Shown: in pieces, positions 3,103 through 25,351 of the stretch
Position numbering within the stretch: position 1 is the stretch's first letter
Layout of the letters: the number at the start of each line of letters is the position of its first letter
Assembly (NCBI GenBank): GCA_025360425.1
Contig: JANYCD010000046.1
Location: 17,871-81,870, forward strand
Length of the DNA: 64,000 nt
Direction of reading: 5' to 3'
From: Sterolibacteriaceae bacterium
GTDB lineage: Bacteria; Pseudomonadota; Gammaproteobacteria; Burkholderiales; Rhodocyclaceae
The notes under the pieces: generated by a model
Database searches by the model: none
Seen by the model: only the letters and a program-made list of their open reading frames with translations
Told to the model about the DNA's origin: nothing
Translations under genes and position numbers: made by a program

Positions 3103-4068
3103 TCAGATACGGTCTGGTGGTTCGCGCAGCCGATATTGGTCGCGGCCTTCAGGTTCGTGGTAGATGCGAATCAGGATTTCGCCGAGCAGGCCCATCGCGA
3201 TCAGCTGTGCGCCCATCAGTACCATCATGATGCCGAGCAGCAATAATGGCCGGCCGCCAATGCTTTCGCCCGTGATCTTGAGGAGGGTCAGGTAGCCCAA
3301 CATGCCCACACCAGGCACCAGCATCCACAGGCCGACGCCGCCGAAGGCATGCAGCGGACGATGCAGGTAGCGCAGCATGAACTTCATCAACAACAGGTCG
3401 AGCACCACGCGGAAGGTGCGGTCGATGCCGTACTTCGATTGACCCTTGGTGCGGGCATGATGGCGCACTGGCACTTCGATGATCTTGGCGCCAGCTTCGG
3501 CGGCCAGCACCGGGATGAAGCGATGCAGTTCGCCGTAGAGGCGGATGCGGCGGACCAGTTCGGTGCGATAGGCCTTGAGCGCGCAACCGTAGTCGTGCAG
3601 TTGCACGCCGGTGGCCCACGAGATCAGCCGGTTGGCCAGCATTGACGGCAACTTGCGGTTGAGGGCGGCATCCTGCCGCTCCTTGCGCCAGCCGGAGATC
3701 ATGCTGATGTCGGGTCGGTTTTCGAGCGTGCGGATCAGTTCGGGGATATCGAGCGGATCGTTTTGCAGGTCGCCATCGAGCGTTACGGTGTAGCGGCCCG
3801 TTACCGCGTCGAAGCCCGCCTGCAATGCGGCGGTCTGGCCGTAATTGCGCATCAGGTAAAGCGGATGCAGCCACGGCGTCTGTGCCGCGAGATCGCGCAG
3901 CACGTGTGCCGAACGGTCGCGTGAGCCGTCGTCGATGCAGATCAGCTCGAAGCTGAAGCCGCTGCCCTGCATGGCTTCGCCAACGCGTGCGACTAGGTCG
4001 GGCAGGTTCTCTTCCTCGTTGTAGACGGGAATGACGATGGAAACGTCGCAGTTCAATTTATCGGTCAT
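3103..4068 (-). CDS. Glycosyltransferase family 2, DPM1/ArnC-like with C-terminal TM helices
   Basis: VSIVIPVYNEEENLPDLV, IDDGSRDRS, VTLDGDLQNDP; two hydrophobic C-terminal segments. Confidence 0.88.
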   Translation of the reverse strand: MTDKLNCDVSIVIPVYNEEENLPDLVARVGEAMQGSGFSFELICIDDGSRDRSAHVLRDLAAQTPWLHPLYLMRNYGQTAALQAGFDAVTGRYTVTLDGDLQNDPLDIPELIRTLENRPDISMISGWRKERQDAALNRKLPSMLANRLISWATGVQLHDYGCALKAYRTELVRRIRLYGELHRFIPVLAAEAGAKIIEVPVRHHARTKGQSKYGIDRTFRVVLDLLLMKFMLRYLHRPLHAFGGVGLWMLVPGVGMLGYLTLLKITGESIGGRPLLLLGIMMVLMGAQLIAMGLLGEILIRIYHEPEGRDQYRLREPPDRI

Positions 4069-4606
4069 GTCGAGTGTTATGCCAGCAATTACGGATCAAT
4101 AAACACAGTGCGGCCACAGCCAACAGGGGATCAAGCAGAGTGTCCCAGAGATTGGTCGATTCCTGCAAGCCGGCGGCGAAGGCTAACAGATCAACGGCCA
4201 GCAGCCACAGGTAGAGTGGCTGGCCCTGCCACCATGCTGCAATGGCCGCCGCTCCAAGCACGGCCACCAGCAACCAGGGTTGATAGCCAAGGCGGTAGGG
4301 GTCGACATCGCCGAGGCCCAGGGCCATTGGATAAATCAGCGCGGCGATTGCCACGATGAAGGCAGGTCCGCGCCAGCCCCGGCTGAAAGCAGTTGGCGTA
4401 AATCCGATCAACGACAGGATGAGCAACTGCAGGGTGGTGATGCTGGGGTCGCCCCACAATCCGCGCATTGCCATCGCCGTTGATACACCCTGGGACAGGG
4501 GAATCTGCGTCAACAAGCCGATCAGGGATGCAAGGAATTTCAGGCGACGCGGCATCAACAGCGCCATCGCCCATGCGACCAGGAGTGCCTGTGCCAGCAT
4601 GCTCAT
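4058..4606 (-). CDS. Small polytopic membrane protein, unknown function
   Basis: 182 aa, several hydrophobic segments; overlaps neighbours by 4-11 nt in an operon. Confidence 0.65.
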   Translation of the reverse strand: MSMLAQALLVAWAMALLMPRRLKFLASLIGLLTQIPLSQGVSTAMAMRGLWGDPSITTLQLLILSLIGFTPTAFSRGWRGPAFIVAIAALIYPMALGLGDVDPYRLGYQPWLLVAVLGAAAIAAWWQGQPLYLWLLAVDLLAFAAGLQESTNLWDTLLDPLLAVAALCLLIRNCWHNTRHDR

Positions 4607-5724
4607 GGCGTCGTTTCCATCCAGCTTGGGACAAAACTGATCGCCTTGATGGTTTTTCGTTGCCAGGTGTAGGCGAGATGGATGACGCCTGAACGATCCT
4701 GCAACAAGGCCGGATAGGAAAACTCGTCCTCGCCTTGTCCTTGTTCGACGAATTTCGGGGTTGACCAGGTTTTGCCGCCATCACGCGAAACCGACAAGGC
4801 CAGTTGGGTACGATTTGATTGCTGCGGGTTCCAGGCCAGCAGAAGGTTTCCGTCCGTCAGTCGCAGCAGGGCAATGCCGGCGTCCGGATTGGGCAGGATA
4901 GTGGCGGTCGCAGCTTGCCAGCTTTGGCCTCCATCGTCGCTGGTGCTGGAGTGGATGCGACGTGTGGGCCCGGCATCGCGCAGCAGCGTCAGCGCGTGCT
5001 GTGCATCAAGCGCTGCAACTGCGGGCTGGAAGATTTTGTTTGATGAGGGAATCCTTGCCTTGTCTACAACCCGGCCTGCGCTTTCGAGCCGCAGCCATTC
5101 AGCGCGTTTGCCAATGAACTCATGGTAGACAGGAAAACCAATGCCGCCATCGCTCAACGGCAATGGCGGATTGCGTACCAGCGTGCTGAGGTTGAAAAAG
5201 GGGGAGGTGATCAGTCGCGTGACGGGACCCCAGTTTGTGCCGCCATCTTTCGACACGATGTGGTTGATGGAACTGCCCGCCCAACCACCATAGGAGACGC
5301 TGACAAACCATAGATGCAACGTGCCCTGTGGGTCACTCCACAACACCGGGTTGCCCAGCTTGCGGATCAGGCGCCCGGTGCTGCGCTGAACTTCAGCGCG
5401 GTCGGCGATTAGTCGCGGTGCACTCCATGTATTGCCATCCAGGACCGACATGACGATCACGACATCGGCCGCGCCTTCGCGGCTGCCGGCAAACCATGCG
5501 GCAGCAATGCGGCCATCCGGCAATGCCGCAAGCGATGCGCTGTGGGCTGAAGCACTGTAGGCGGGAAGCATCGTTGCGACCGGTGCTGTCGCGGCAAGCG
5601 ATACTTTCGCTGCCGCGATGGGAGAAACAGAGAAGGTTGGTTCGGGCAATGTCCGCAACCGGGGCAGAACCAGCATTACGGCAATCGCGAATGCGGCGAG
5701 CGGCAACCAGTTGCGTTTCATCAC
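4603..5724 (-). CDS. Sialidase-like BNR/Asp-box protein with N-terminal TM/signal anchor
   Basis: Asp-box-like repeats SKDGGTNWGPV, SDDGGQSWQAA, SRDGGKTWSTP; hydrophobic N-terminus MKRNWLPLAAFAIAVMLVL. Confidence 0.8.
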   Translation of the reverse strand: MMKRNWLPLAAFAIAVMLVLPRLRTLPEPTFSVSPIAAAKVSLAATAPVATMLPAYSASAHSASLAALPDGRIAAAWFAGSREGAADVVIVMSVLDGNTWSAPRLIADRAEVQRSTGRLIRKLGNPVLWSDPQGTLHLWFVSVSYGGWAGSSINHIVSKDGGTNWGPVTRLITSPFFNLSTLVRNPPLPLSDGGIGFPVYHEFIGKRAEWLRLESAGRVVDKARIPSSNKIFQPAVAALDAQHALTLLRDAGPTRRIHSSTSDDGGQSWQAATATILPNPDAGIALLRLTDGNLLLAWNPQQSNRTQLALSVSRDGGKTWSTPKFVEQGQGEDEFSYPALLQDRSGVIHLAYTWQRKTIKAISFVPSWMETTP

Positions 5725-10349: not shown

Positions 10350-11284
10350 TCCTTTCGTTCCAGTATGGCGCCGATCAGGTAGCGTGGCCGGTGGCGTACC
10401 TGCTGGTAGATGCGGCCAATGTATTCGCCGAGCAGGCCGACGCCGAACAGGGTCAGGCCGATGAGGAAAAAGGCAATGCCGAACAGGGTGAACACGCCTT
10501 CCGCTTCCGGTCCGACCATCAGTCGCCGGATGAACAGGAAGACGACGAACAGGGCAGATAGGAAGGAAATGCCGATACCCAGCATCGAGAAAAATTGCAG
10601 CGGGATCAGCGAAAAACTGGTCATCAGGTCGAAGTTGAGGCGGATCAGGCTGTACAGCGAATACTTGGAATCCCCGGCGTGGCGCTCTTCGTGGGCAACT
10701 TCGACCTCGGCGGGATTCTGCGCGAAGGAGTAGGCCAGGGCCGGGATGAAGGTACTGACTTCGCGGCAATTGTTGATGGCGTCGATGATGGAGCGCGAAT
10801 AGGCGCGCAGCATGCAGCCCTGGTCGGTCATCTTGATGCGGGTGATGCGTTCGCGCAGGCGGTTCATGGCCTTCGACGCCCAGCGGCGGAACGGCGTGTC
10901 CTGGCGGTTTTGGCGGATGCTGCCGACGCAGTCGTAGCCTTCGCGCACCTTGGCGACCAGCTTGCCGATTTCTTCCGGCGGGTTTTGCAGATCGGCATCC
11001 AGCGTCACCACGATCTGCCCACGCGAATGTTCAAAGCCGGCCATGATCGCCATATGTTGCCCGGCGTTGGCGGCGAGCAGGATGGCACGCGTCACGTCGG
11101 GCCGCTTCTCGAACTGTGTTCGCAACATGGCGGCGGAACGGTCACGGCTGCCATCGTTGATGAAGATCACCTCATAGTCTGCACCCAGGGCGTCAAGTGC
11201 TGGATAGAGCCTGTCGAAAAGGGCCGGCAGGCCGGCTTCTTCGTTGTAGAGCGGGACGATAACGGAAATTTCCGGAGCGTTCAT
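10346..11284 (-). CDS. arnC: Undecaprenyl-phosphate Ara4FN transferase-like GT2
   Basis: ISVIVPLYNEEAGLPALFDRL, NDGSRDRSAAML, VVTLDADLQNPPEEI; start reset to 11284 (4-nt overlap with arnB stop). Confidence 0.88.
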   Translation of the reverse strand: MNAPEISVIVPLYNEEAGLPALFDRLYPALDALGADYEVIFINDGSRDRSAAMLRTQFEKRPDVTRAILLAANAGQHMAIMAGFEHSRGQIVVTLDADLQNPPEEIGKLVAKVREGYDCVGSIRQNRQDTPFRRWASKAMNRLRERITRIKMTDQGCMLRAYSRSIIDAINNCREVSTFIPALAYSFAQNPAEVEVAHEERHAGDSKYSLYSLIRLNFDLMTSFSLIPLQFFSMLGIGISFLSALFVVFLFIRRLMVGPEAEGVFTLFGIAFFLIGLTLFGVGLLGEYIGRIYQQVRHRPRYLIGAILERKE

Positions 11285-12399
11285 TTCTGCTTGATGACTT
11301 CGGTAATGGCCAGGCACACACGAGCGACATCTGTGTCTGCCATGCCTGGAAAGAGAGGAAGTGTAATGGTTTCACGTCCAACCCGTTCGGCATGGGGGAA
11401 GTCACCTTCCTTGAAGCCAAGCTTGCGATAGAGCGTGAACAGATGCAGGGCAGGGTAGTGAACGCCGATACCGATGCCGCGCCCTTTCATTGCAGCGATG
11501 AAGTTGCCTCGGTTGACCTCTTTCGGCAGCGTTACCTGGAACATGTGCCAGTTTGAGTTTTCGAAGTCAGCCAATGGCAAACCAAGATCCAGCAAGGGAT
11601 CAAGGGTCGAAAAATAGAGACGGGCGAGATGCCGGCGACGTTCAATAAATTCCGCCAGACGCTTCAACTGGCCGAGGCCGATGGCTGCGGCGATGTCGGT
11701 CAGATTGAATTTCCCGCCCAGTACATCCACATCCATGCCGCCATCGGAAAAACGCTGAAATCCCTGCAGCCGCATGCGTTCGCACAAGGCCGGATCGACG
11801 TCGGCGGGAAGCACCAGCGCGCCACCCTCGCCGGTGGTGATGTTCTTGTTGGCATGGAAGCTGAAGGAGACAAAGTCGCCGAATGAACCGATCGGTTTGC
11901 CACGCCAGCGCGATCCGAAAGACTGCGCTGCATCCTCGATAACGCGCAATTTGTGGCGTCCTGCGATTGCATAAAGCCGATCGCGGTCCACCGGCAGACC
12001 GGCCAGATCTACCGGAATGATGGACTTGGTGCTGGATGTGATCGCGGCTTCGATCCGATCAAGATCGATGTTACGAGTGGCTGGGTCAATGTCCACCAAT
12101 ACTGGCGTAGCGCCGACTTCGAGAATGACGTTAGTGGTCGCGACCCAGGTCAGCGGCGTGGTGATGACTTCGTCGCCAGGACCAACGCCGGCGAGACGGA
12201 GGGCGATTTCCAGGGTGGAACTGCCCGAGCTGAACACACGCACTGGCCGGCCGCCGCAGTATGTCGACAGCGCAGCTTCCAGGGCTTGCACCCTGGGACC
12301 GCTGGTGAGCCAGCCCGAGCGCAGCACCGCCACCACATCGGCGATGGTGGTCTCGTCGATTGAAGGCCGTGTGAAAGGTAGAAATTCTGCGCTGCCCAC
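11281..12399 (-). CDS. arnB: DegT/DnrJ/EryC1 aminotransferase, ArnB-like
   Basis: FTRPSIDETTIADVVAVLRSGWLTSGPRVQALE; VIEDAAQSFGS; SFSFHANKNITTGEGG (PLP lysine). GTG start at 12399 preceded by AGGAG. Confidence 0.88.
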   Translation of the reverse strand: MGSAEFLPFTRPSIDETTIADVVAVLRSGWLTSGPRVQALEAALSTYCGGRPVRVFSSGSSTLEIALRLAGVGPGDEVITTPLTWVATTNVILEVGATPVLVDIDPATRNIDLDRIEAAITSSTKSIIPVDLAGLPVDRDRLYAIAGRHKLRVIEDAAQSFGSRWRGKPIGSFGDFVSFSFHANKNITTGEGGALVLPADVDPALCERMRLQGFQRFSDGGMDVDVLGGKFNLTDIAAAIGLGQLKRLAEFIERRRHLARLYFSTLDPLLDLGLPLADFENSNWHMFQVTLPKEVNRGNFIAAMKGRGIGIGVHYPALHLFTLYRKLGFKEGDFPHAERVGRETITLPLFPGMADTDVARVCLAITEVIKQK

Positions 12400-12416: not shown

Positions 12417-12788
12417 TTACGAACGCGCCACGAGCACTACGCCGATGACGATAAAGCCAAGCCCCAGCAACTTTTGTGCGACCAGTGGTTCGCCGAACCA
12501 GAAATAGGCCACGGCCGCGTTGACCACATAGCCAATGGAAAGCATCGGGTAAGCAACGCTGACGGGTACTCTGGAAAGCGCCATGATCCACACCACCAAA
12601 CTCACCGCATAACACGCCATGCCGCCCAGAATATAGGGCTGGAACGCGATCTTCATGCCGATCGGAATCAGGTTGTCGAGCTGGAACTCGAAATGGCCGA
12701 CGACATTGGTGCCGGCCTTGAGCAGCAGTTGTGCAAAGGCATTGAGCAATACGCCGGTGAGCACCAGAGCAAATGCGATCGGCGTCAT
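12417..12788 (-). CDS. Small multidrug resistance / ArnE-ArnF-like membrane protein
   Basis: 123 aa, four hydrophobic segments, SRVPVSVAYPMLSIGYVVNAAVAYFWFGEPL. Confidence 0.8.
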   Translation of the reverse strand: MTPIAFALVLTGVLLNAFAQLLLKAGTNVVGHFEFQLDNLIPIGMKIAFQPYILGGMACYAVSLVVWIMALSRVPVSVAYPMLSIGYVVNAAVAYFWFGEPLVAQKLLGLGFIVIGVVLVARS

Positions 12789-14428
12789 TGTGGCTTCCTT
12801 ATGATGACATTGCGTTTGTCGCGGGCAACTTCCTGCATCGGCAAACCCTCGGCCTGCATCGCCGGCAGCACGCTCAGCGGCATGATGGCGAAGGCATCCT
12901 TGTCTTGCTCCCAGCGCGGGCGAAACTCCGCCACCGTGGGGATCCATTTGTCAGGTTCCTGACCGATGCCAAAGGCCAGTTCATCGGTGTATTCCACCAG
13001 GGTCACGGTACGATTGATATAGAACGGCAAGGTTTGTTCGTAGCCGCGCACGCTATAGAAGGGGACGCCTGGCGTCAGCAGCGAACGGGTTTTTGCGGCG
13101 ATGTCGGAGGCGGAATAGTACGGCGCCAGATTGTCGTGACCGAGCAGCACGCCGCTGCCGGCCAGCAGGCTTCCGCTCGCCAGTACGATCAATGCCGGCA
13201 TGTTGCGTCTGTTCCACGCAAGCGTTGTTGCTGCTGCCAGGGTCAGCAGCAACAGTAATGCGGCGCCAGTTAACCAGTTGGCATAACCGGAAAGCATTTC
13301 GTAGGAATACTCATGGTCGACACCATTGACCAAATGCGGTGCAAACCACAACGCAGGCAAGGCAAGCAATACCAATGTGCCCAGATGCAATAGCAATCCA
13401 CGGCGCGACAGGTTGCCAAGCACTTTGCCGCCCAACAGTGCCAGTGCAGGAAATATTGGCAGGATGTAAGACGGCAGCTTGGAACTGGAGACGCTGAAAA
13501 AGCCGAAGGTGATCGCGATCCACAGCAGCAGAAAGCGCGGCGGCTGAAACGGCGCGGTTCCCTCACGACGCCATGACTTGAGCATCGCGTGGAGCAGCAT
13601 GAACGTCCACGGCAGGGCGCCGAGTGTATAGATGACGAAGAAATACCAGTCGGGCTGGTTGCGGCGATGGACCGTGGTGAGGAAACGCTCGAAGTGTTCG
13701 TGAATGAAAAAGAAATGTGGAAACTCGGGATTGGCGAGCGATACCGCGACGAACCAAGGCGCAGTGATGGCAAAAAACAGCAGCAGGCCCGATATCGGAC
13801 TTAGCCGTCGCCACGGAGACCAGTCACGATTGAGCAAGGAATAGGCAAACAGTGTCGAGCCAGTCAGAACCAGGGCCACCAGCCCTTTGCTCAGAACCGC
13901 GAGTGCCAACGCAGCCCATGCGACCCACATCCAGCGGCGTGCACTGCGGGTATCACCCTGCTGGGCGAAGAAAAAGCCGGTCCACGCCAGTTGCAGGAAA
14001 AAGCTGAGGCCCATGTCGAGGGTGATGATCTGGCTCATGACCAGGTAAAGCAGGCAGCTGGCCAATATGGCGGCGGTCAGTGCACCAGCCTGCGGCCCCC
14101 ATAATCTGCGACCGGTGTACCAGCCCAGCAGGACGCCGAAAAACCCTGTCAGGGCCGGCCACAGGCGAGCAGTCCACTGGTGTTCGCCGAAGGCCTCGTA
14201 GCCTGTCGCAGTGGCCCAGTATTGCAGCGCCGGCTTTTCGAAATACTTGATCGCATTCAGGCGCGGCGTCAGCCAGTCGCCGCTGGCCACCATCTCGCGC
14301 GGAATTTCGGCATAGCGTCCTTCGTCCGGACGCACCAGGCGCCGGTAATCGAGAGTGCCGAACCAGACCGCGATCAGGGCGATCCAGAGGATCCAGGCAA
14401 AACGACGCGTGCCGGGTGTCATGGTCAT
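12785..14428 (-). CDS. arnT: 4-amino-4-deoxy-L-arabinose transferase-like, GT39
   Basis: DYRRLVRPDEGRYAEIPREMVASGDWLTPRLNAIKYFEKPALQYWATA. Start at 14428 overlaps the upstream stop; the ORF-track start at 14887 is too long. Confidence 0.87.
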   Translation of the reverse strand: MTMTPGTRRFAWILWIALIAVWFGTLDYRRLVRPDEGRYAEIPREMVASGDWLTPRLNAIKYFEKPALQYWATATGYEAFGEHQWTARLWPALTGFFGVLLGWYTGRRLWGPQAGALTAAILASCLLYLVMSQIITLDMGLSFFLQLAWTGFFFAQQGDTRSARRWMWVAWAALALAVLSKGLVALVLTGSTLFAYSLLNRDWSPWRRLSPISGLLLFFAITAPWFVAVSLANPEFPHFFFIHEHFERFLTTVHRRNQPDWYFFVIYTLGALPWTFMLLHAMLKSWRREGTAPFQPPRFLLLWIAITFGFFSVSSSKLPSYILPIFPALALLGGKVLGNLSRRGLLLHLGTLVLLALPALWFAPHLVNGVDHEYSYEMLSGYANWLTGAALLLLLTLAAATTLAWNRRNMPALIVLASGSLLAGSGVLLGHDNLAPYYSASDIAAKTRSLLTPGVPFYSVRGYEQTLPFYINRTVTLVEYTDELAFGIGQEPDKWIPTVAEFRPRWEQDKDAFAIMPLSVLPAMQAEGLPMQEVARDKRNVIIRKPQ

Positions 14429-14796
14429 TCGACGATCAACACGGCTACGACCTTGCGGCCTTCGGCCATTAACACGTTGTAGGTGCGGCAGGCCGCCGCA
14501 GTGTCCATGACCTCGACGCCGATGCGGGCTTCGATCATTGGCCGCAGGATGGCAGGGGAGGGGAAACGCTGTCGCGCACCGGTGCCAAGCAGCACGACGT
14601 CGCATTTTGAGGTGGCAAGTGAGGTCAAGTGTTCGGCCCGAAGATCGTCGAGGTTCGTCGGCGGCCATTCCGAATCGAGGCTGTCGGGTGTCACGATCAG
14701 GCTGCGTTCGTAACGTCGTCCGTTGATGGCGACGAAGCCGGAACCGTAAGCGGTGACCGTGTTTTGACCGGAATAAGTGTCGGCGTGGAGTTTCAT
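14425..14796 (-). CDS. Mth938/DUF498-like domain protein
   Basis: MKLHADTYSGQNTVTAYGSGFVAINGRRYERSLIVTPDSL, LLGTGARQRFPSPAI, EVMDTAAACRTYNVLMAEGRKVVAVLI. Confidence 0.75.
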   Translation of the reverse strand: MKLHADTYSGQNTVTAYGSGFVAINGRRYERSLIVTPDSLDSEWPPTNLDDLRAEHLTSLATSKCDVVLLGTGARQRFPSPAILRPMIEARIGVEVMDTAAACRTYNVLMAEGRKVVAVLIVE

Positions 14797-14959
14797 AAAA
14801 ACAAAGCGCCGACAACCTTGATTGCGGCGCAGCATGGGCTTCGGTAAGATTATACCTTTGCCCGGCACGCGGCCCAATGTCAGTCATTGGGCGAAATAGC
14901 GCGTGTTTGGCTGCTTTCCCGGAGTTTCTCCAGGACGATCAATGAGACAAGGGTTCCTG

Positions 14960-16186
14960 ATGCGACCAGTAATGAAGTCTGCAAAGCTGGACAATGTCTG
15001 TTACGACATCCGTGGTCCGGTGCTCGGCCGCGCCCGACAGATGGAGGACGAAGGCCATCGCATCATCAAGCTGAACATCGGCAATCTGGCGCCGTTCGGC
15101 TTCGAGGCGCCGGAGGAAATCGTGCAGGACATGATCCGCAACCTGCCGGAGTCGTCGGGCTACTCCGACTCCAAAGGCGTTTTCTCCGCGCGCAAGGCGA
15201 TCATGCATTACACGCAGCAAAAGAAGATCTCCGACGTGACCATTGACGATATCTACCTTGGCAACGGCGCTTCGGAACTGATCGTGATGGCCATGCAGGC
15301 GCTGCTGAACCCGGGCGATGAAGTGCTGGTGCCAAGCCCCGATTATCCGTTGTGGACGGCGGCGGCCACTTTGGGTGGCGGCGCGCCACGACATTACCTG
15401 TGCGACGAACAGGCCGGATGGTTGCCCGACATTGACGACATCCGCAAAAAAATAAGCCCTTCTACCCGGGCGATCGTCGTCATCAATCCCAACAACCCGA
15501 CCGGGGCGCTTTATCCCGATGCAGTGCTGCTGAAAATCATCGAACTCGCCCGTATCCACCAGCTCATCATTTTTGCCGATGAAATCTACGACAAGGTGCT
15601 CTACGACGGCAACACGCACACTTCGATCGCCTCTTTGGCGGATGACGTGCTGTTCGTGACTTTCAACGGGCTGTCGAAAAACTATCGTTCCTGTGGTTTT
15701 CGCGCCGGGTGGATGGTGGTTTCGGGGCAGAAGCAACACGCGGGCGATTACATCGAAGGGCTCAACATCCTGGCGTCGATGCGCCTGTGCGCCAACGTGC
15801 CGGGACAATACGCAATCCAGACTGCACTAGGTGGTTACCAGAGCATTAATGATCTGGTCGCGCCTGACGGGCGCCTGGCGAGGCAGCGCGATCTGGCCTG
15901 GGAGCTGTTGTCGGAAATTCCCGGCGTCTCTTGCGTCAAACCCAAAGCGGCGCTGTATCTGTTTCCACGCCTCGATCCGGCGGTCTATCCGATCGCGGAC
16001 GACGAGCGATTCATTCTTGAATTGCTGGAAGCCGAACGGGTTCTGCTGGTGCAGGGCAGCGGTTTCAACTGGCCCCATCCGGACCATTTCCGCGTGGTCT
16101 TCCTGCCGCACGAGGATGACTTGCGTGAGGCCATCGGCCGTATCGCCCGTTTTCTGGAAAGCTATCGCAAGCGACACGGAAGCTGA
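14960..16186 (+). CDS. Alanine-synthesizing aminotransferase (AlaA/AlaC type)
   Basis: KLNIGNLAPFGFEAPEEI, INPNNPTGALYP, DEIYDKVLYD, SKNYRSCGFRAGW; exact start uncertain (14942/14960/14972). Confidence 0.88.
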   Translation: MRPVMKSAKLDNVCYDIRGPVLGRARQMEDEGHRIIKLNIGNLAPFGFEAPEEIVQDMIRNLPESSGYSDSKGVFSARKAIMHYTQQKKISDVTIDDIYLGNGASELIVMAMQALLNPGDEVLVPSPDYPLWTAAATLGGGAPRHYLCDEQAGWLPDIDDIRKKISPSTRAIVVINPNNPTGALYPDAVLLKIIELARIHQLIIFADEIYDKVLYDGNTHTSIASLADDVLFVTFNGLSKNYRSCGFRAGWMVVSGQKQHAGDYIEGLNILASMRLCANVPGQYAIQTALGGYQSINDLVAPDGRLARQRDLAWELLSEIPGVSCVKPKAALYLFPRLDPAVYPIADDERFILELLEAERVLLVQGSGFNWPHPDHFRVVFLPHEDDLREAIGRIARFLESYRKRHGS

Positions 16187-16192
16187 AATGCG

Positions 16193-16270
16193 TGAGGGGT
16201 GAGGAGTGAAGGGTGAGGAGCAAAAACCCGACGCTCTTTACCCCTTTCTCCTCACTCCTTACTCCTCACT
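16193..16270. repeat. Intergenic GTGAGGAGTGA / TCACTCCTCAC inverted repeat
   Basis: gtgaggggtgaggagtgaagggtgaggag ... ctcctcactccttactcctcac between the aminotransferase gene and hom. Confidence 0.8.
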
Positions 16271-16275
16271 GAATT

Positions 16276-17589
16276 ATGAAACCTATCAATGTTGGTCTTC
16301 TGGGCATCGGCACTGTCGGTGGCGGCACGTTTACGGTGCTGGCGCGCAACGAAGCTGAAATTACCCGCCGCGCCGGGCGGCCGATCAGAATTTCGATTGT
16401 TGCCGACAAGGAGGTAGCGTTGGCGAACAAGGTCGCCCAAGGCAAGGCCAAGGTGACCAATGATGCATTCGCTGTCGTCAACGATCCTGAAGTGGACATT
16501 GTCATCGAGCTGATCGGCGGCTGCGGTGTGGCCAAGGAACTGGTGTTGAAGGCGATCGAGAATGGCAAGCATGTGGTCACCGCCAACAAGGCGCTGCTGG
16601 CCAACCACGGCAACGAAATCTTTGCCGCCGCACAGAAAAAAGGCGTGATGGTGGCTTTCGAGGCAGCCGTGGCGGGCGGCATTCCCATCATCAAGGCAGT
16701 ACGTGAGGGCCTTAGCGCCAACCGCATCGAGTGGATCGCCGGCATCATCAACGGCACCACCAATTTCATCCTTTCGGAGATGCGCGACAAGGGATTGTCC
16801 TTCGACGTAGTGCTCAAGGAGGCGCAGCGACTGGGTTACGCCGAGGCCGATCCGACGTTTGACATCGAAGGCGTCGATGCTGCTCACAAGATCACCATCC
16901 TTTCCGCGATCGCCTTCGGCATTCCGGTGCAATTCGACAAGGCGCACGTCGAGGGCATCAGCAAACTCGAAGCTGACGACATCAAGTACGCCGAGCAACT
17001 CGGCTATCGCATCAAGCTGCTGGGCATCACCAAGCGCAAGGAAAACGGCATTGAACTGCGCGTGCATCCAACACTGATCCCCGTTCGACGCCTGATCGCC
17101 AACGTGGAAGGCGCCATGAACGCGGTGTTGGTGCAGGGTGACGCCGTTGGCTCGACCCTCTACTACGGCAAGGGTGCCGGCGCAGAGCCGACAGCCAGCG
17201 CGGTGATTGCCGATCTGGTCGACGTGACCCGCATGCACACGGCCGACTCGGCGCACCGCGTGCCGCATCTGGCATTCCAACCTGACGCGCTGCACAGCAC
17301 CCCGATTCTGCCGCTCTCCGAAGTGGAAACCAGCTATTACCTGCGGCTAAGAGTGGAGGACAAACCCGGCGTACTCGCCGATATCACCCGCATCCTGGCC
17401 GATCAGCAGATATCCATCGACGCCATGATTCAGCGCGAGCCGGGTGAGGGGGAAGATCAGACTGACATCATCATGCTGACGCATGTGACTCGCGAAAAGC
17501 ACGTCGATGCGGCAATTGCCAAAATCGAAATGTTGCCGGTGGTGAAGCGAAACGTGATTCGTCTGCGCATGGAAGATTTGGCTGGCTGA
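16276..17589 (+). CDS. hom: Homoserine dehydrogenase
   Basis: INVGLLGIGTVGGGTFTVL; AGIINGTTNFILSEM; C-terminal ACT region. Confidence 0.93.
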   Translation: MKPINVGLLGIGTVGGGTFTVLARNEAEITRRAGRPIRISIVADKEVALANKVAQGKAKVTNDAFAVVNDPEVDIVIELIGGCGVAKELVLKAIENGKHVVTANKALLANHGNEIFAAAQKKGVMVAFEAAVAGGIPIIKAVREGLSANRIEWIAGIINGTTNFILSEMRDKGLSFDVVLKEAQRLGYAEADPTFDIEGVDAAHKITILSAIAFGIPVQFDKAHVEGISKLEADDIKYAEQLGYRIKLLGITKRKENGIELRVHPTLIPVRRLIANVEGAMNAVLVQGDAVGSTLYYGKGAGAEPTASAVIADLVDVTRMHTADSAHRVPHLAFQPDALHSTPILPLSEVETSYYLRLRVEDKPGVLADITRILADQQISIDAMIQREPGEGEDQTDIIMLTHVTREKHVDAAIAKIEMLPVVKRNVIRLRMEDLAG

Positions 17590-17637: not shown

Positions 17638-18033
17638 TTGTGTATCCAGCTACTACATCCAACTTTTAAGGTCATGCTTGTTACAACTCACATTGTTTGT
17701 CGCTATGGTCTATCTGCCGGGTTCATTGCCATGAATAATGACGACGCTGGAAAGGGTGTAATTCGTCGTTGTCGGATTCCAGGTCAATGCCTTCGATGAA
17801 GCCCGTAGAAAATACATTAAAGTTTTTGGGATTGAATTAAAGAAAACATTTTTCTTGGTCGTAAAGGCACATTGGGCTAATTTCGATTCGCAACCGCCAA
17901 ACCTTCGTTAAAGCCGTTCCACAAACCGATAATCTGTGTGTTTCTGACATTTTCATGGAAAATGCTACCAATTTGTTTGACAAGCGCCGGTGCGGCGTTT
18001 CATACTCAAAACGTCAAATCATCAGGAACATAC

Positions 18034-19065
18034 GTGACCGACACTGCTAAATTCAGCCACGGTTTGGAGCGGGATGCGATGCTTGCCCCGCTCCCCGATT
18101 TACGCTATCCGACCACGCCATTCGAGCAACTGGCACGCATAGGCGGTCATTTGTTCGATGTGGATGTTTGCGTCGCTCTTTTGCCAGAAGAGCCGCATTG
18201 GATGCGAACGATAGGTGGGCTTCTTGAGAGTGAAGGAAAGGTACCTCAACGGCTGTTCGGCCAGCACAGCGCAATACTGATTCCGGATACATTTGCGCTT
18301 GATTCGTTGCGGGCCAACTTGCTTGTTTCAAAAGACCCCGGCATTCGCTTCGTGGCGCATTCACGTCTGATCGCCAGTGATGGAAAGTCGCCGCTGGATA
18401 TTTTTTTGGGAGACCGTGAGCCTCGCACATGGACCAATGAGCGTTCATCGTTGTTTGGCGACTTTCTGGCGATTTGTAACGAAGTTTTGAATGGTGGTTT
18501 GCAGGAGCGCGAATTGCTTGATCTCATTGAAGAGAACAAGCAGCTTCATCGCTTGGCCACGGTGGATCACCTGACAGGGCTTTGGAATCGAAATTCCATT
18601 TTGGATATTCTTGATCGTGAATTGGAGCGGTGTTTTCGCGAACGGCTGCCGATTTCGGTCATTGTTGCCGATCTGGATCATTTCAAAAATGTAAATGATC
18701 AGTACGGGCACTTGGCGGGTGATGCGGTACTCGAAGAAGTCGGAAGGCGATTGCGCCGTGCCGTGAGAACCTATGATGCGGTCGGTCGCATAGGTGGAGA
18801 GGAGTTCCTGATCGTTATGTCCAGTTGCGATGCGCTGGTCGCTGCTTCTGTTGCCGAGCGTATTCATGCCGTGATTCGAAGTGATTCGATGCCAGCAGGC
18901 GAAACGCAGGTCAGCGTCACGATCAGTCAAGGATTGGTGACTTATTCCGGTGAGAAAAGGATGAATCCGGTGGAACTTTTCGAAAAAGCCGACAAGGCGC
19001 TTTATTTGGCAAAATCCAAAGGTAGGGATGGCATACAAAGAGACACCGACACGAAGTCGCGATAA
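18034..19065 (+). CDS. GAF-like N-terminus plus GGDEF diguanylate cyclase
   Basis: DHLTGLWNRNSILDILDREL, RTYDAVGRIGGEEF (GGEEF with RxxD I-site five residues upstream). GTG start at 18034 inferred. Confidence 0.85.
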   Translation: MTDTAKFSHGLERDAMLAPLPDLRYPTTPFEQLARIGGHLFDVDVCVALLPEEPHWMRTIGGLLESEGKVPQRLFGQHSAILIPDTFALDSLRANLLVSKDPGIRFVAHSRLIASDGKSPLDIFLGDREPRTWTNERSSLFGDFLAICNEVLNGGLQERELLDLIEENKQLHRLATVDHLTGLWNRNSILDILDRELERCFRERLPISVIVADLDHFKNVNDQYGHLAGDAVLEEVGRRLRRAVRTYDAVGRIGGEEFLIVMSSCDALVAASVAERIHAVIRSDSMPAGETQVSVTISQGLVTYSGEKRMNPVELFEKADKALYLAKSKGRDGIQRDTDTKSR

Positions 19066-19142
19066 ATAAGTATGGGCGGCTTATCTTGGAGTCAGCGCCA
19101 GTACCGGCGCTTGATCAGCGGAAAGTTTTTGGGGGTATAGCG

Positions 19143-20441
19143 ATGGGAAAGTTTGGTGGAAACTCACTTTTTCGGCACTCAAGCGAGTTACGGCGTGATA
19201 TGCGTTATGTACGAAGCGATATTGTTGAGTATCTGAAACGTCCTAAAGGAGAAGACGGAGTACTTCTAAGCCGACCGCATGACCAGCGCTCAATTGAGCA
19301 ATATGGCACTGGAAGAAGAGTATTTAAGCAGGCTCGCGAATATCATCAATCAGCCAATTTCGAATTGCCGCCAATGACTTCCAGCGCATTGACCATCGTC
19401 GTCATTGATGACCAGTCAACAGGCAGACTGCTGATCTCGGAAATACTCACTGGTGTTGCTCCGGATGCACAAGTAATTGCTTTTGAAGAACCATTCGATG
19501 CAATTGCATATGCGGAAACACATCAAGTGGATCTCGTGTTGACCGATTACAGAATGCCATCAATTGACGGCATCGAGACCATACGTCGACTACGCGCCAT
19601 TGAGCATATGATCGAAGTGCCAATAATATGTATAACGATCGTCGATGACCGCGAAATAAAGTACCGGGCATTGGAGGCAGGTGCCACCGACTTCCTCAAA
19701 CGGCCACTGGACCCGTTCGAGTGTGCAGCCAGATGCAGAAATCTTCTAAGTTTGCGTAAGCAGCAATTACTCAATCACGAGTACACAGAGAATCTTGAAG
19801 ATCGCGTTGACCAGGTGACCCGGGAAATGCGTGTCAGCGAAATGGAAACCCTTTTGCGGCTCGCACGCGTTGCCGAACAACGCGATAGTTTTACCGGTTT
19901 GCATCTGGTCAGAATGGCAAAATATTCGGTGTTGCTGGCACGCGAACGTCAATGGAACGCTGATAGCCTGGATATCCTTGAGTTGGCTGCCCCGCTGCAT
20001 GATATCGGGAAAATCGCGATTCCTGATGAAATTCTTCAGGCCCAACGTCGCTTGACTGAAGAAGAAATGATAGTCATGCGCACGCATGCAGAGATAGGGC
20101 ACTCAATGCTGGAAGGGAGTCAATCGCGCTACCTGCAAATGGCCGCCTCGGTCGCCAGAAGTCACCATGAAAAATTTGATGGCAGCGGCTACCCCAGCGC
20201 ACTCGCGGGTGAGCAAATTCCGATCGAAGCCAGAATCGTCGCAATTGCCGATGTCTATGATGCTCTGACTTCCAAGCGTCACTATAAAGCGGCCTGGACC
20301 GTTGAAGAGGCTACGGATCACATGTGGGCGCAATCGGGGCGACACTTTGATCCGCTGCTACTTACCAGTTTTTTTGCATGCAAGGACGAACGAGAACAAA
20401 TTCGTCTGGCTTTTGGCGACCCGATCTCCGATACCGATTGA
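19143..20441 (+). CDS. rpfG: Response regulator with HD-GYP domain, RpfG-like
   Basis: REC: VVIDDQSTGRLL, LVLTDYRMPSIDG, FLKRP; HD-GYP: HDIGKIAIPDEIL, HHEKFDGSGYP. Start could be 19374. Confidence 0.85.
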   Translation: MGKFGGNSLFRHSSELRRDMRYVRSDIVEYLKRPKGEDGVLLSRPHDQRSIEQYGTGRRVFKQAREYHQSANFELPPMTSSALTIVVIDDQSTGRLLISEILTGVAPDAQVIAFEEPFDAIAYAETHQVDLVLTDYRMPSIDGIETIRRLRAIEHMIEVPIICITIVDDREIKYRALEAGATDFLKRPLDPFECAARCRNLLSLRKQQLLNHEYTENLEDRVDQVTREMRVSEMETLLRLARVAEQRDSFTGLHLVRMAKYSVLLARERQWNADSLDILELAAPLHDIGKIAIPDEILQAQRRLTEEEMIVMRTHAEIGHSMLEGSQSRYLQMAASVARSHHEKFDGSGYPSALAGEQIPIEARIVAIADVYDALTSKRHYKAAWTVEEATDHMWAQSGRHFDPLLLTSFFACKDEREQIRLAFGDPISDTD

Positions 20442-20512: not shown

Positions 20513-22636
20513 ATGACATTACTAGCGCAACTCCCCTCAAAGCTTGACCTTGGGGCCAGTGTAAAGGCACAGGCGATTCTCCGTGCGCTATTGGCACTGC
20601 CAATCGTTTTGGGTGGTGCTGGATTGTTTCATTTGAGTGGAATTGCCAGTACCTGGATCTGGTTGCTGGGAGCATGCCAACTCATATACACGTTGTTGAT
20701 GCTGATACTTGCGCATCATCCTGGTCGTTTTACCGCGCGACAGTTAGTAAGCCTCTCGGCAGTTCTCGATCCACTTGTACTTTCAGCATGGCTGCCGCTC
20801 ATGAATGAATATGGCGGACTGGTTGTGGGGTTTTATCTCTTCACGATTCTCGGCTTTGGATTCCGCACCGGCTTAAAGCTTATGCGGGTATGCCAACTTG
20901 TTTCTATTGCCGGTTTTTCTGCAGTATTGCTCGTGGTTCCTTTCTGGAGAGAGCATTTCGTCATATGGCTGTCGTTTTTGGTGACACTGATCGTAGTTCC
21001 CCTCTACGCGACAGTATTGATACGGAAACTCCACGAATCTCGCGCGCATGCCGAACAGGAAAGCATGGCCAAATCTGAATTGCTAGCCCGGGTCAGTCAT
21101 GAACTACGAACCCCGCTGTCCGGCATCATGGCGGCGACGCAACTGCTGGCAATGGAAACCAGCGACAAGAAAGCTGCAAAACGGGCTGAAACGATTCTTG
21201 GGCTATCCAAGGATCTGCTGCATGAAATCAATGACCTGCTTGATCAATCGAAGTACGAGGCCAAGGCTCTGGTGCTGGAGTCTGTAGCGTTGAACTTGCC
21301 GGAGCAGATGGAACGAGTCCGCCTCACCATGGAGCCTGCGGCAGCGAAAAAGAATCTCGCGTTTCGGACCAGCATGGATCCGAGGATCGCAGATTGGGTG
21401 CTTGGTGACTCTCATTACCTGAGCCGGGTATTGCTCAACCTTGTGGGTAATGGAGTCAAGTTCACCGATCACGGCGAGATTTTGATCGGAATGCATCTGC
21501 TAGATGAGAGCGAAACAGAATATCGCATTCGCTTTACGGTTCAGGATAGCGGAATCGGTATTGCACCGGAACATCATGAGCGCATTTTCGAGCCATTCTT
21601 TCAGACTGACAGCGGGACGGTACGCCGTTACGGAGGGACGGGGTTGGGCATGACCATTGCCCGAGAAATTGTGAAATTGATGGGCGGCGATCTACGCTTG
21701 GCGAGTGAGTTGGGCAAGGGGACCCTGTTTTATTTTGACCTCTCCATGCCGAGAACCGGGATTCCTGAAGAGCGCATAAGTTCAAGCGAAGTGGTGCCGT
21801 TGGTGAACGGCAAGCGAATATTCGTAGTCGATGATCACGAAACGAACCTGATGCTGATCAAGGAATTGCTCGAGCAGGATCGACATGAAGTCACCGTCGC
21901 GACGGGCGGCATGGAGTCGCTGGAGATTCTGAGTTCCAGAGAGTTCGATGTCATTTTCCTGGATTTTAATTTAAGTGATATGGACGGGCTCAGGCTTCTG
22001 CAGCTTTACCGCTTTGGAACGGTTAATCCGGCACCGACCTTCTTCCTTACTGCAGATGCAACATTGGTGACTGCCGACAAGCTCAAGAATTCGGGTGCTG
22101 TCGGAGTATTGATAAAGCCGATCATACTTGGCGAGTTACGGCGGGCTGTAGCACAAGCATGTGGTCTGACGTCGGCCAAGACTACGGTTATCGATCAGGC
22201 TTCATCCAAATCTGCTCGACCTATTCTGAAGGCAGTTCCCGCTCAGGCAATCGATCTCACGGTGATCGAGCATCTCAAATCTATCAGTGGACGTCCTGCT
22301 TTCCTGCGAGAACTATTGACGCATGCTGAGGAGGACATCCGGCGCAATTGCGAGGATCTTGTCCGGGCATTGACTATCCGTGATATCGAGTGCATCGCCG
22401 ATACCGCCCATGCGCTTAAAGGTGTCTGTGCCAGCATCGGTGCTGTACGTTTGATGGCCGTCGCGACAGGTCTCATGCGTTGCTCGCGCGAAGACCTGAA
22501 GCGTGCCGAACCCCGAATGAGAACCGACGTCACCGAAGCTTCAATCGCCACATTGGATGCTATCGGCAATATCCTTGCCGATATTGACAGTAAGAAACCG
22601 GTCGATAGTTCAGCGGCCTTCCTGCATACGAATTAG
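20513..22636 (+). CDS. rpfC: Hybrid sensor histidine kinase (TM, HisKA, HATPase, REC, Hpt), RpfC-like
   Basis: VSHELRTPLSGIM, DSGIGIAPEHHERIFEPFFQ, GGTGLGMTI, VIFLDFNLSDMDG, DTAHALKGVCASIGA; N-terminal multi-TM region. Confidence 0.85.
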   Translation: MTLLAQLPSKLDLGASVKAQAILRALLALPIVLGGAGLFHLSGIASTWIWLLGACQLIYTLLMLILAHHPGRFTARQLVSLSAVLDPLVLSAWLPLMNEYGGLVVGFYLFTILGFGFRTGLKLMRVCQLVSIAGFSAVLLVVPFWREHFVIWLSFLVTLIVVPLYATVLIRKLHESRAHAEQESMAKSELLARVSHELRTPLSGIMAATQLLAMETSDKKAAKRAETILGLSKDLLHEINDLLDQSKYEAKALVLESVALNLPEQMERVRLTMEPAAAKKNLAFRTSMDPRIADWVLGDSHYLSRVLLNLVGNGVKFTDHGEILIGMHLLDESETEYRIRFTVQDSGIGIAPEHHERIFEPFFQTDSGTVRRYGGTGLGMTIAREIVKLMGGDLRLASELGKGTLFYFDLSMPRTGIPEERISSSEVVPLVNGKRIFVVDDHETNLMLIKELLEQDRHEVTVATGGMESLEILSSREFDVIFLDFNLSDMDGLRLLQLYRFGTVNPAPTFFLTADATLVTADKLKNSGAVGVLIKPIILGELRRAVAQACGLTSAKTTVIDQASSKSARPILKAVPAQAIDLTVIEHLKSISGRPAFLRELLTHAEEDIRRNCEDLVRALTIRDIECIADTAHALKGVCASIGAVRLMAVATGLMRCSREDLKRAEPRMRTDVTEASIATLDAIGNILADIDSKKPVDSSAAFLHTN

Positions 22637-23485
22637 CATTTCCATCACACGAAGCTCATCGGCAGTCAGGTCCATGGCGGTGCTGACCCATTCGTCGACC
22701 ACCATCAATAACTCCTGGTAATCCAGCGGCGCGACACGATAACGACTGCGCTGTAGCATAAGACGGGCAATACGCCGCTTGGCATGTCCTGCGATAAACT
22801 TTTCGACGGTGGCAACGCCTTCGCCCTTCGCGCAAAGTTCATCCACGATCCCCATTTCCTTCAGTTCCTTCGCCGAGTAGATGCGGCCATTGGTCATCAT
22901 TCGCTCGGCTTCATAAACGCCCACACGGCGTGCGAGCAGGCTCATGCCCCCGGTGCAAGGGAACAGGCCGAACATGATTTCAGGAAAGCCAAATTCACTC
23001 TGCTCTTCTGCAATTAAAAAATCCGCGCCGAGCGCAGTTTCGAATCCGCCACCCAAAGCACGACCCTGAACCAGCGCAATGGTGGTTGCGCGATTGTTCA
23101 GCGTCGTCGCCCACTCGTACAGGATGTCCAGGCACAGCTTGGAGTATTGATACAGGGACGTCTTGTCCTGCCGGGTAATGCACGAACGAAAGTGCTCAAG
23201 ATCTCCACCCAGACTGAAATAATCCGGGTGACCGGACTTGAGCACCGTGTAATGCACAGGTTTCATCTGTCCCTGGTGTCGCCAGCTGACGTCATCGTTT
23301 TTCACTGCTGAAAGCAATTCGTGCAAGCCATTCAATATCGGTAACGAGAAGTTCTGACGTCCCCCGGCAATATCACGGGCCATGGTGACCCACAGCGTGT
23401 TGGCCGCTCCGGAGTCAAAGTCGACCTCGATGCGATTGGATCCGCGCTGAATTTTTGGTTGCGCAGCAAAGTTGAGAGTTGCCAT
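22610..23485 (-). CDS. rpfF: DSF synthase, crotonase fold, RpfF-like
   Basis: SLGGDLEHFRSCI, GRALGGGFETALGADFLIAEEQSEFGFPEIMFGLFPCTGG (two conserved Glu); next to rpfC/rpfG. Confidence 0.87.
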   Translation of the reverse strand: MATLNFAAQPKIQRGSNRIEVDFDSGAANTLWVTMARDIAGGRQNFSLPILNGLHELLSAVKNDDVSWRHQGQMKPVHYTVLKSGHPDYFSLGGDLEHFRSCITRQDKTSLYQYSKLCLDILYEWATTLNNRATTIALVQGRALGGGFETALGADFLIAEEQSEFGFPEIMFGLFPCTGGMSLLARRVGVYEAERMMTNGRIYSAKELKEMGIVDELCAKGEGVATVEKFIAGHAKRRIARLMLQRSRYRVAPLDYQELLMVVDEWVSTAMDLTADELRVMEMLIRMQEGR

Positions 23486-23514
23486 GATTTTCCCCTTCGT
23501 GAGTTAAAAAAGGA

Positions 23515-24783
23515 CTACACCGGAACAGCCTGATGTGTGCTCGGAGTTTCACGATATTTCGAAACCACCAGCGCCACATTGGTACCACCCAAACCCGATG
23601 AGAACGACATCGCGTGCTCGATCAGTCTATCGAAAATCGGAATATTGGCGACGTGATTCAAATTGCAATCGGGGTCGAGTTCGTCCAGGTTTGTTGTCGC
23701 CGGAAGGAATGATTCGTTCATCGCGACAATCGTAATGATCAATTCCATTACGCTTGCCGCCCCAAGGAGATGACCATGTACAGATTTTGTCGAGCTGACA
23801 GGCAGGGCCTCGGCCGCTTCGCCAAAAGCAAGCTTGATTGCGTTGGCCTCGACCGTATCACCACCACGCGTAGCGGTGGCGTGAGCATTGAAGTAATCAA
23901 TCGCTGCCGGCTGAATTCCGGCATCTTTGAGCGCAGCGGCCATTGCAATGACCTGCCCATCGGCTTTTGGTGAGCCGATATGGTAGCCATCAGATGCGAT
24001 GCCATAACCGGACAAGGTGGCAAGGCAAGTGGCGCCTCTTTTCCTGGCATGGGTGGCCGATTCAAGCACAATGAATGCAGCTCCTTCACCAATAACCAGA
24101 CCAGTGCGGTTCTTCGAAAACGGCTTGCAACTGTGACCGACATCCTGCGTGTCCGGTGTGGCTAGTGCCCGACTCCCATCCCAGGCAACAAAGGTCGATG
24201 TGGTTAAAGGAGAGTCGGCGCCACCAGCGATTGCAACGTCAAGATAACCGTCGCGGATGGCCCTGTAAGCATCTCCGATGGCGGTTCCTGAGGAAGTACA
24301 TGCGGTGTTATGCGTCATCACCGGCCCCAGGATTTGGTGCCGTATCGATATTTGCGCCGCGCCTGCATTGTGCATGATTGCAAATACGGTATAGGGCCTG
24401 GCAGACTGGGCGTGTTCTACAAGATACTTCTCAAACCAGATTTCCTCCAGCTCGGCACTACCCCTTACGGTTCCATAGTAGAGGCCAGCCCTTTGTTGAT
24501 ATTCAGATAAATCGTTCAATCCCGCCCCAGTGATCGCTTGGCGAGCAGCTAAAACAGCCATCTGCGTGCAACGATCCAGATACGGTAAATCGAGCTTTGA
24601 AAATTCATCGCTGAAGTCGCGCAAAACCCTTCCGGCTGGATATTTTTTGCTTAATTTTGAGGACTGCCAAAGGTGAATCCCTGATCGTCCGTTTTTCAGT
24701 GCTGATATCAATTCGGCCGTGTCAAGTCCGATTGGGGAAACCAGGCCCATCCCGGTGATAACGACATCCTGCTGTTGGTTCAT
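23515..24783 (-). CDS. Beta-ketoacyl-ACP synthase II-like (FabF family)
   Basis: DVVITGMGLVSPIG; TACTSSGTAIGDAYRAIRDG (Cys); NAHATATRGGDTVEANA and STKSVHGHLLGAAS (His/His). Confidence 0.9.
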   Translation of the reverse strand: MNQQQDVVITGMGLVSPIGLDTAELISALKNGRSGIHLWQSSKLSKKYPAGRVLRDFSDEFSKLDLPYLDRCTQMAVLAARQAITGAGLNDLSEYQQRAGLYYGTVRGSAELEEIWFEKYLVEHAQSARPYTVFAIMHNAGAAQISIRHQILGPVMTHNTACTSSGTAIGDAYRAIRDGYLDVAIAGGADSPLTTSTFVAWDGSRALATPDTQDVGHSCKPFSKNRTGLVIGEGAAFIVLESATHARKRGATCLATLSGYGIASDGYHIGSPKADGQVIAMAAALKDAGIQPAAIDYFNAHATATRGGDTVEANAIKLAFGEAAEALPVSSTKSVHGHLLGAASVMELIITIVAMNESFLPATTNLDELDPDCNLNHVANIPIFDRLIEHAMSFSSGLGGTNVALVVSKYRETPSTHQAVPV

Positions 24784-24813
24784 ATTTTGGCTGGTTCCGT
24801 TATCGACTCAAAC

Positions 24814-25074
24814 TCAAACACTAGGTGCCATATTCCGTTCTATGGCGGCCGCGACTTCACCCAATGACGGGTTCGGCGGTACGGAGAGATCTTCCAATTT
24901 GATGCCAAGTTCTGATTCCATGTCCAGCATGATCTCTAATACATGAAGAGAATCAACACCCAAGTCACGGAGGCGGGAGTTCTCGTCAACTTTTGTGACA
25001 TCAATGGCGAATCGGTCTTTCAATGCATCCTTGATCTTTTCGACTAGATCGATATTGCTCAGAGGAGAAGGCAT
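24814..25074 (-). CDS. Acyl carrier protein
   Basis: 86 aa, LRDLGVDSLHVLEIMLDMESELGIKL phosphopantetheine attachment motif. Confidence 0.88.
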   Translation of the reverse strand: MPSPLSNIDLVEKIKDALKDRFAIDVTKVDENSRLRDLGVDSLHVLEIMLDMESELGIKLEDLSVPPNPSLGEVAAAIERNMAPSV

Positions 25075-25227
25075 AGTGCGATTCCATCCTAAATTAAATT
25101 AATCGGCTGCTTGTTCGCAGTAGTTGAAAGTCATCTGCGACGACCATACGGAACAAAACCTAACACGAAGCATGCCAAACCGAAAGTCGGCAGCGGAGTG
25201 GGATTCGAGATCAGTTTGCTTGATATG

Positions 25228-25256
25228 AAAAAAACGACCCGAAAAGGGGGCCGTTA
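25228..25256 (-). terminator. Terminator downstream of tRNA-Ser
   Basis: Minus strand AACGGCCCCCTTTTCGGGTCGTTTTTTT. Confidence 0.65.
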
Positions 25257-25261
25257 TCGTT

Positions 25262-25351
25262 TGGCGGAGGCGGTGAGATTCGAACTCACGAGGGGCGTTA
25301 ACCCCTGCCGGTTTTCAAGACCGGTGCATTTAACCACTCTGCCACACCTCC
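25262..25351 (-). tRNA. tRNA-Ser(TGA)
   Basis: Minus strand GGAGGTGTGGCAGAGTGGTTAAATGCACCGGTCTTGAAAACCGG...GTTCGAATCTCACCGCCTCCGCCA; anticodon TGA, long variable arm, encoded CCA. Confidence 0.95.

Follow-up and report, generated by a model that had tools for sequence, protein, structure and literature searches.

An RpfF-type gene linked to acyl carrier protein and ketosynthase genes in an rpf-type locus of a Sterolibacteriaceae bacterium

Two questions about bacteria that signal with molecules of the diffusible signal factor (DSF) family are how the chain of the signal is fixed and how acyl chains are shared out to signal and membrane. In Xanthomonas, general fatty acid synthesis supplies the DSF precursor (PMC4542539), and a partly dedicated reductase, FabG2, which is encoded elsewhere in the genome, contributes to it (PMC5941067). 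A 64,000-nucleotide stretch of a Sterolibacteriaceae bacterium genome (assembly GCA_025360425.1, contig JANYCD010000046.1, positions 17,871 to 81,870; here called the window) contains an rpf-type locus in which the gene for an RpfF-type enzyme is preceded by genes for an acyl carrier protein (ACP) and a ketosynthase (KS). The locus raises the question of whether this enzyme has a precursor line of its own. Where a synthase gene has ACP and KS genes of its own at the locus, recruited to such loci more than once, the question of chain and partition becomes testable.

The ACP, KS, and RpfF-type genes

The three-gene cassette lies on the minus strand and encodes, in order, an ACP of 86 amino acids (24814 to 25074; Pfam PP-binding, 1.3e-9), a FabF-like elongating KS of 422 amino acids (23515 to 24783; ketoacyl-synt, 3.1e-42; Ketoacyl-synt_C, 1.8e-31), and an RpfF-type crotonase of 291 amino acids (22610 to 23485; ECH_1, 8.5e-28) that is a putative DSF-family synthase. 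All three open reading frames have an ATG start and a stop codon and are separated by gaps of 30 bases (ACP to KS) and 29 bases (KS to RpfF). The coordinates and strand assigned to these genes in a first-pass annotation of the window were borne out by the open reading frames and by the Pfam and PDB matches. The cassette contains ACP, KS, and RpfF only and includes no ligase, acyltransferase, second KS, or reductase gene.

The rpfF gene is convergent with a plus-strand gene encoding an RpfC-type hybrid sensor kinase (20513 to 22636), and the ends of the two genes overlap by 27 bases tail to tail. The kinase is composed of an N-terminal membrane domain, homologous to that of kinases from other rpf loci, followed by HisKA, HATPase, REC, and Hpt domains, and an RpfG-type response regulator with a REC domain and an HD-GYP-type HD domain is encoded at 19086 to 20441 on the same strand. 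Because the RpfF-type gene is convergent with genes for both an RpfC-type kinase and an RpfG-type HD-GYP regulator, the window holds, as judged from its gene content, a complete rpf-type locus. The same components, including an RpfF with both catalytic glutamates, are found in Xanthomonas, where rpfF is likewise convergent with rpfC-rpfG (PMC8357829). Where Xanthomonas has rpfB, however, the window has the ACP and KS genes upstream of rpfF; rpfB, an acyl-CoA ligase gene of xanthomonads only, was not found beside the rpfF of the window. The first-pass annotation was thus right to doubt that this gene order is the standard one, the published order being convergent rpfBF and rpfCG (PMC8357829).

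The top PDB match of the window RpfF is the Xanthomonas enzyme (3M6M, 8e-43), and in that alignment the catalytic glutamate pair is kept, with E149 and E169 aligning with E141 and E161 of RpfF from Xanthomonas campestris pv. campestris. The protein scored 278 bits against PRK08788, above the cut-off of 177, and 183 bits against the NCBIfam RpfF equivalog NF053515, below the cut-off of 550. It further differs from the Xanthomonas enzyme in a loop where nearly all other RpfFs carry GMGA and the cassette RpfFs carry CTGG, and its clade sits on a long branch of the RpfF tree. Since the clade is divergent and the protein falls below the equivalog cut-off, it is named RpfF-type here, and a known DSF is not claimed as its product.

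The top PDB matches of the window KS are FabF enzymes (1e-79). Its score against TIGR03150 (fabF) was 358 bits, below the cut-off of 493.75, and the ACP scored 33 bits against TIGR00517 (acyl_carrier), below the cut-off of 70.45. The positions of FabF Cys163, His303, Lys335, and His340 are kept in each complete rpf-linked KS; the phosphopantetheine motif GVDSL is intact in the window ACP, and the attachment serine is kept in the cassette ACPs. Functional readings of the KS, ACP, and RpfF residues are predictions from alignments. Ile108 of FabF, a chain-length residue in the pocket, has been named a gating residue (PMC7138838), and its replacement by Phe lessens long-chain elongation (PMC5206705). 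This position is Arg in the window KS and Arg or Lys in five of the six complete cassette KSs, compared with none of 36 other KSs that have a residue there (37 were aligned, with Escherichia coli FabB gapped at the position). The FabF Phe400 gate position is Leu in the KSs of the window and of two related loci (L018 and L017), and the position of AcpP Asp38 is His in all six of the window-clade cassette ACPs.

The genome search found two KS and two ACP genes in total in the host genome, a 2.47-Mb draft that is 84% complete. The other KS/ACP pair belongs to a fabG-acpP-fabF cluster on a separate contig (C22), which indicates that the cassette KS and ACP differ from the housekeeping pair, as the first-pass annotation had supposed. 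The possibility that the cassette is itself the housekeeping fabF/acpP was rejected on the basis of this cluster and of the equivalog scores, which fall below the cut-offs for both cassette proteins. This finding carries one reservation, in that the housekeeping fabF (L021, 8286 to 9509, contig C22) is interrupted toward its C-terminal end by one in-frame TGA, past which the frame stays conserved; the TGA could stem from the assembly, from polymorphism, or from a genuine lesion.

Recurrence of the linkage and origin of the KS

The RpfF clade of the window comprises seven loci: the window, L017 (identical to L023), L018 (identical to L024), L022, L187, L188, and L189, the last three belonging to another GTDB family than the window. 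The named relatives are a Herbaspirillum metagenome-assembled genome (MAG; L022, Herbaspirillum sp. MAG RYN_547), a Betaproteobacteria MAG, and a Proteobacteria MAG. In the six other genomes, the RpfFs are 58 to 70% identical and the KSs 60 to 70% identical to those of the window. A KS gene is present in the rpf locus in all seven cases, and an ACP gene in all except L017, where the contig ends within the KS gene. The window, L187, L188, and L189 share the order ACP-KS-RpfF convergent with the kinase gene; in L022, KS-RpfF is convergent with the kinase gene and the ACP gene lies on the far side of the kinase gene, while in L018 a run of ACP, KS, HD-GYP regulator, and kinase genes is convergent with rpfF. 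Comparison of the window flanks with the clade loci found nothing in common beyond ACP, KS, RpfF, kinase, and response regulators, the one extra match being a GGDEF domain in L022. Recurrence of the cassette in six other genomes without other common flanking genes confirms, at the level of gene neighborhoods, that the linkage of ACP, KS, and RpfF exceeds chance.

All seven of the KSs found with more than 55% identity to the window KS are rpf linked. The nearest KSs outside rpf loci are 40 to 48% identical, and an ACP gene lies directly upstream of the KS gene in 22 of 22 fetched loci. The possibility raised in the first-pass annotation that most relatives of the pair occur without rpfF therefore holds for these distant KSs only and fails for the close ones. 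Many of the distant KSs belong to a module common in the Burkholderiales, with the order alpha/beta hydrolase-ACP-FabF-like KS (L064 to L083, L144, and L145); the hydrolase was present in 18 of the 22 fetched loci, and rpfF was found near the ACP-KS pair in none of the 22.

A broader survey covered 144 RpfF loci, most of which came from an evenly drawn set of genomes (399 for the order, 98 for one family, and 274 for the class). A KS gene is present in the rpf neighborhood of 16 of these loci, with the ACP gene sometimes out of view at contig ends, and the pair is distributed across the Burkholderiales and two further families of the class. All 16 loci are sensor linked or on a cut contig. With the cut-contig locus L200 taken as sensor linked, a KS gene is present in 16 of the 97 sensor-linked loci and in none of the 47 sensor-less ones (p = 0.0014 by Fisher test; with L200 taken as sensor-less, p = 0.02; relatedness was ignored in both tests). 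Beyond the window clade, the arrangements differ. In L164, L196, L209, L226, and L200, as far as the contigs allow, HD-GYP regulator, kinase, ACP, and KS genes form a run convergent with rpfF; in L126, and probably in L176, whose contig is cut, the convergent run is ACP, KS, HD-GYP regulator, and kinase; L258 has ACP-KS-RpfF convergent with the kinase gene; and in L253 ACP-KS is divergent from the kinase gene.

In the RpfF tree, the KS-linked state is explained by five changes, whether gains or losses, at least four of which are forced by well supported branches. The KS tree placed the six complete sequences of the window clade in one group with 100% support, the L164 type distant from this group, L258 and L253 on long branches, and the L126 KS among those of the alpha/beta hydrolase-ACP-KS module. 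A single clade of all rpf-linked KSs was rejected by the approximately unbiased (AU) test (p-AU, 0.00026), as was a clade joining the window group and the L164 type (p-AU, 0.011). A single ancient gain of the ACP-KS pair, common to all rpf loci, was accordingly rejected for the KS, and the tree tests firmly support at least two separate recruitments of a KS to rpf loci, meaning that ACP and KS were recruited more than once.

A number of further loci bear on the surroundings of RpfF genes. A lone ACP gene without a KS gene lies directly beside rpfF in two genomes of the class (L246, 4167 to 4406; L256, 8604 to 8846). In L127 (genome G507), two tandem genes for distant KSs (13685 to 17001) lie 6 to 7 kb from rpfF and the kinase gene. 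A radical SAM protein gene (10528 to 12123) is immediately upstream of the ACP-KS-RpfF run of L258, and the ACP-KS genes of L253 adjoin a gene for a cyclopropane-synthetase-like methyltransferase (12758 to 13840) that could modify an acyl chain. Plasmid-borne RpfF relatives in Methylobacterium, Sphingomonas, Bosea, and Methylibium have no annotated KS or ACP gene alongside in a gene table that is incomplete.

A putative precursor line and its alternatives

A private precursor line is the best explanation for the linkage of an ACP gene and an intact elongating KS gene to the gene for an RpfF-type enzyme, and we consider it somewhat better than an even chance that the window carries a quorum-sensing module of the rpf/DSF type and that its synthase has such a line. 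The pair is kept together in relatives and was acquired more than once, and the signal may therefore come from a dedicated line and not from the general pool. Characterized RpfF acts on 3-hydroxyacyl-ACP as both dehydratase and thioesterase and releases the acid (PMC4542539). In the window, the cassette KS would condense malonyl units onto a primer chain carried by the cassette ACP, and the product would be reduced to 3-hydroxyacyl-ACP by the housekeeping FabG, which is invoked because the cassette has no reductase. RpfF would then dehydrate this intermediate to a cis-2-enoyl thioester and free the acid, which would be sensed by the RpfC-type kinase and signaled through the HD-GYP regulator. 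A dedicated ACP would keep the precursors of signal and membrane lipid apart, and the chain would be set by the KS pocket, changed at the Ile108 position. We infer that the KS-ACP pair works ahead of RpfF, that the cassette ACP is the carrier preferred by RpfF, and that a DSF-family acid results; the lone ACP genes of L246 and L256 are consistent with a carrier role. No branching-specific feature was found. The working principle would be that of rhizobial NodE/NodF, in which the acyl chain of a secreted signal, the Nod factor, comes from a KS and an ACP reserved for it and housekeeping reductases are borrowed. The likeness is drawn at the level of working principle, and the NodE/NodF system differs in its lipo-chitooligosaccharide signal, in having NodA and not RpfF as the user of the acyl chain, and in occurring in other bacteria.

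Several observations weigh against a private precursor line. The majority of the sensor-linked rpf loci surveyed (79) have no nearby KS or ACP gene, indicating that RpfF does not need the pair, and the distant relatives of the KS sit in a non-rpf module. The L189 cassette KS retains Ile at the FabF Ile108 position. With its long branch and with CTGG in place of GMGA, the window-clade RpfF could form a product that differs from a DSF. In the KS tree, the AU test did not reject joining any single one of L126, L258, and L253 to the window clade, so that two recruitments and not five are claimed.

It is unlikely, though the least so among the alternatives, that the pair forms an output operon, producing some other lipid or polyketide under DSF control and not supplying signal precursor. 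A probable example of such an arrangement occurs in two loci of one family (L134, 11444 to 13258; L158, 11228 to 13041), counted apart from the 16 KS-bearing loci, where a cluster of the aryl-polyene-like type with the order ACP-KS-ACP lies some 3 kb away from rpfF, and the related alpha/beta hydrolase-ACP-KS module also exists without rpfF. The window cassette, however, has no ligase, acyltransferase, or second KS of the kind required for a separate product, and in the window, L187 to L189, and L258 the rpfF gene comes third in one run with the pair. Aryl polyene (xanthomonadin-type) clusters share a FabF-like KS and small ACPs with the cassette, but those of L134 and L158 also encode another ACP, a membrane protein, and an AMP-ligase-like protein; none of these is among the window open reading frames, and the view of the window pair as an aryl polyene neighbor was rejected. 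The alpha/beta hydrolase module likewise has an ACP gene directly upstream of the KS gene but differs in its hydrolase and in the lack of rpfF. The hydrolase had no tblastn match in the window or in the DSF-clade loci searched, and the window KS falls in its own clade; the proposal that the pair is a remnant of this module was therefore rejected, although the KSs of the two are likely of common origin.

A slimmer chance is given to a role of the KS and ACP after RpfF, in which a cis-2-enoyl chain formed by RpfF on the cassette ACP would be lengthened by the KS or handed to another enzyme, yielding a new product sensed by the kinase. The divergent loop and long branch of the RpfF clade would fit such a role, and the charged residue in the cassette KS pocket suggests an unusual substrate. 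Against this, the thioesterase activity of characterized RpfF frees the acid (PMC4542539), and the cassette has no downstream tailoring gene.

It is improbable that the adjacency is incidental, the neighbors of rpfF being surplus FabF and ACP genes or a reserve for fatty acid synthesis. Extra FabF and ACP genes are frequent in bacteria, and the in-frame TGA in the housekeeping fabF, if real, leaves room for a backup role. However, the linkage is kept in seven genomes without other common flanking genes and arose more than once, and the cassette KS and ACP miss the equivalog cut-offs for FabF and acyl carrier protein. Least credible of all is a regulatory role, in which the ACP and KS would retain or redirect acyl chains and thereby make RpfF activity track the state of fatty acid synthesis: the ACP gene alone adjoins rpfF in L246 and L256, but the KS catalytic residues are intact in all complete copies, and a purely regulatory pair would have no need of them.

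A wider proposal can be made tentatively, and we hold it to be rather doubtful: that DSF-family loci repeatedly gained ACP and KS to provide a private carrier and a KS-set chain, and that the window clade, with its altered RpfF loop and charged KS pocket, makes a structurally new signal, with a short or polar chain, that falls outside the known cis-2-enoic acids of about 12 to 13 carbons. Loci with their own ACP and KS genes point to signals that searches for known DSF molecules could miss. A literature search, which had most subscription journals outside its reach, found no report of ACP or KS genes in rpf loci.

Flanking genes and output regulators

Upstream of rpfF, the KS and ACP genes are followed by a tRNA-Ser gene and queF. 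The tRNA-Ser(TGA) gene (25262 to 25351, minus strand) is taken as the cassette boundary, and a terminator-like hairpin lies between it and the ACP gene (25233 to 25255, minus strand). Because of this hairpin, cassette transcription probably starts within positions 25075 to 25232; four such hairpin sites were found versus 3.2 expected, which makes the hairpin weak evidence. On the other side of the locus, a plus-strand gene for a GGDEF protein (17938 to 19065) lies upstream of the RpfG-type gene; it is not conserved in related loci, and its membership in the module is uncertain.

The output regulator varies within the clade. An HD-GYP protein is encoded in the window, L017, and L018, whereas the regulator near the cassette of L022 (12232 to 14412) is a REC-GGDEF-EAL protein. 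In L188 (10988 to 12037) and L189 (12354 to 13400), the regulator beside the cassette combines a REC domain with an adenylate/guanylate cyclase domain, which suggests a cyclic-nucleotide output, and L187 encodes an ortholog of this cyclase-type regulator (3987 to 5051).

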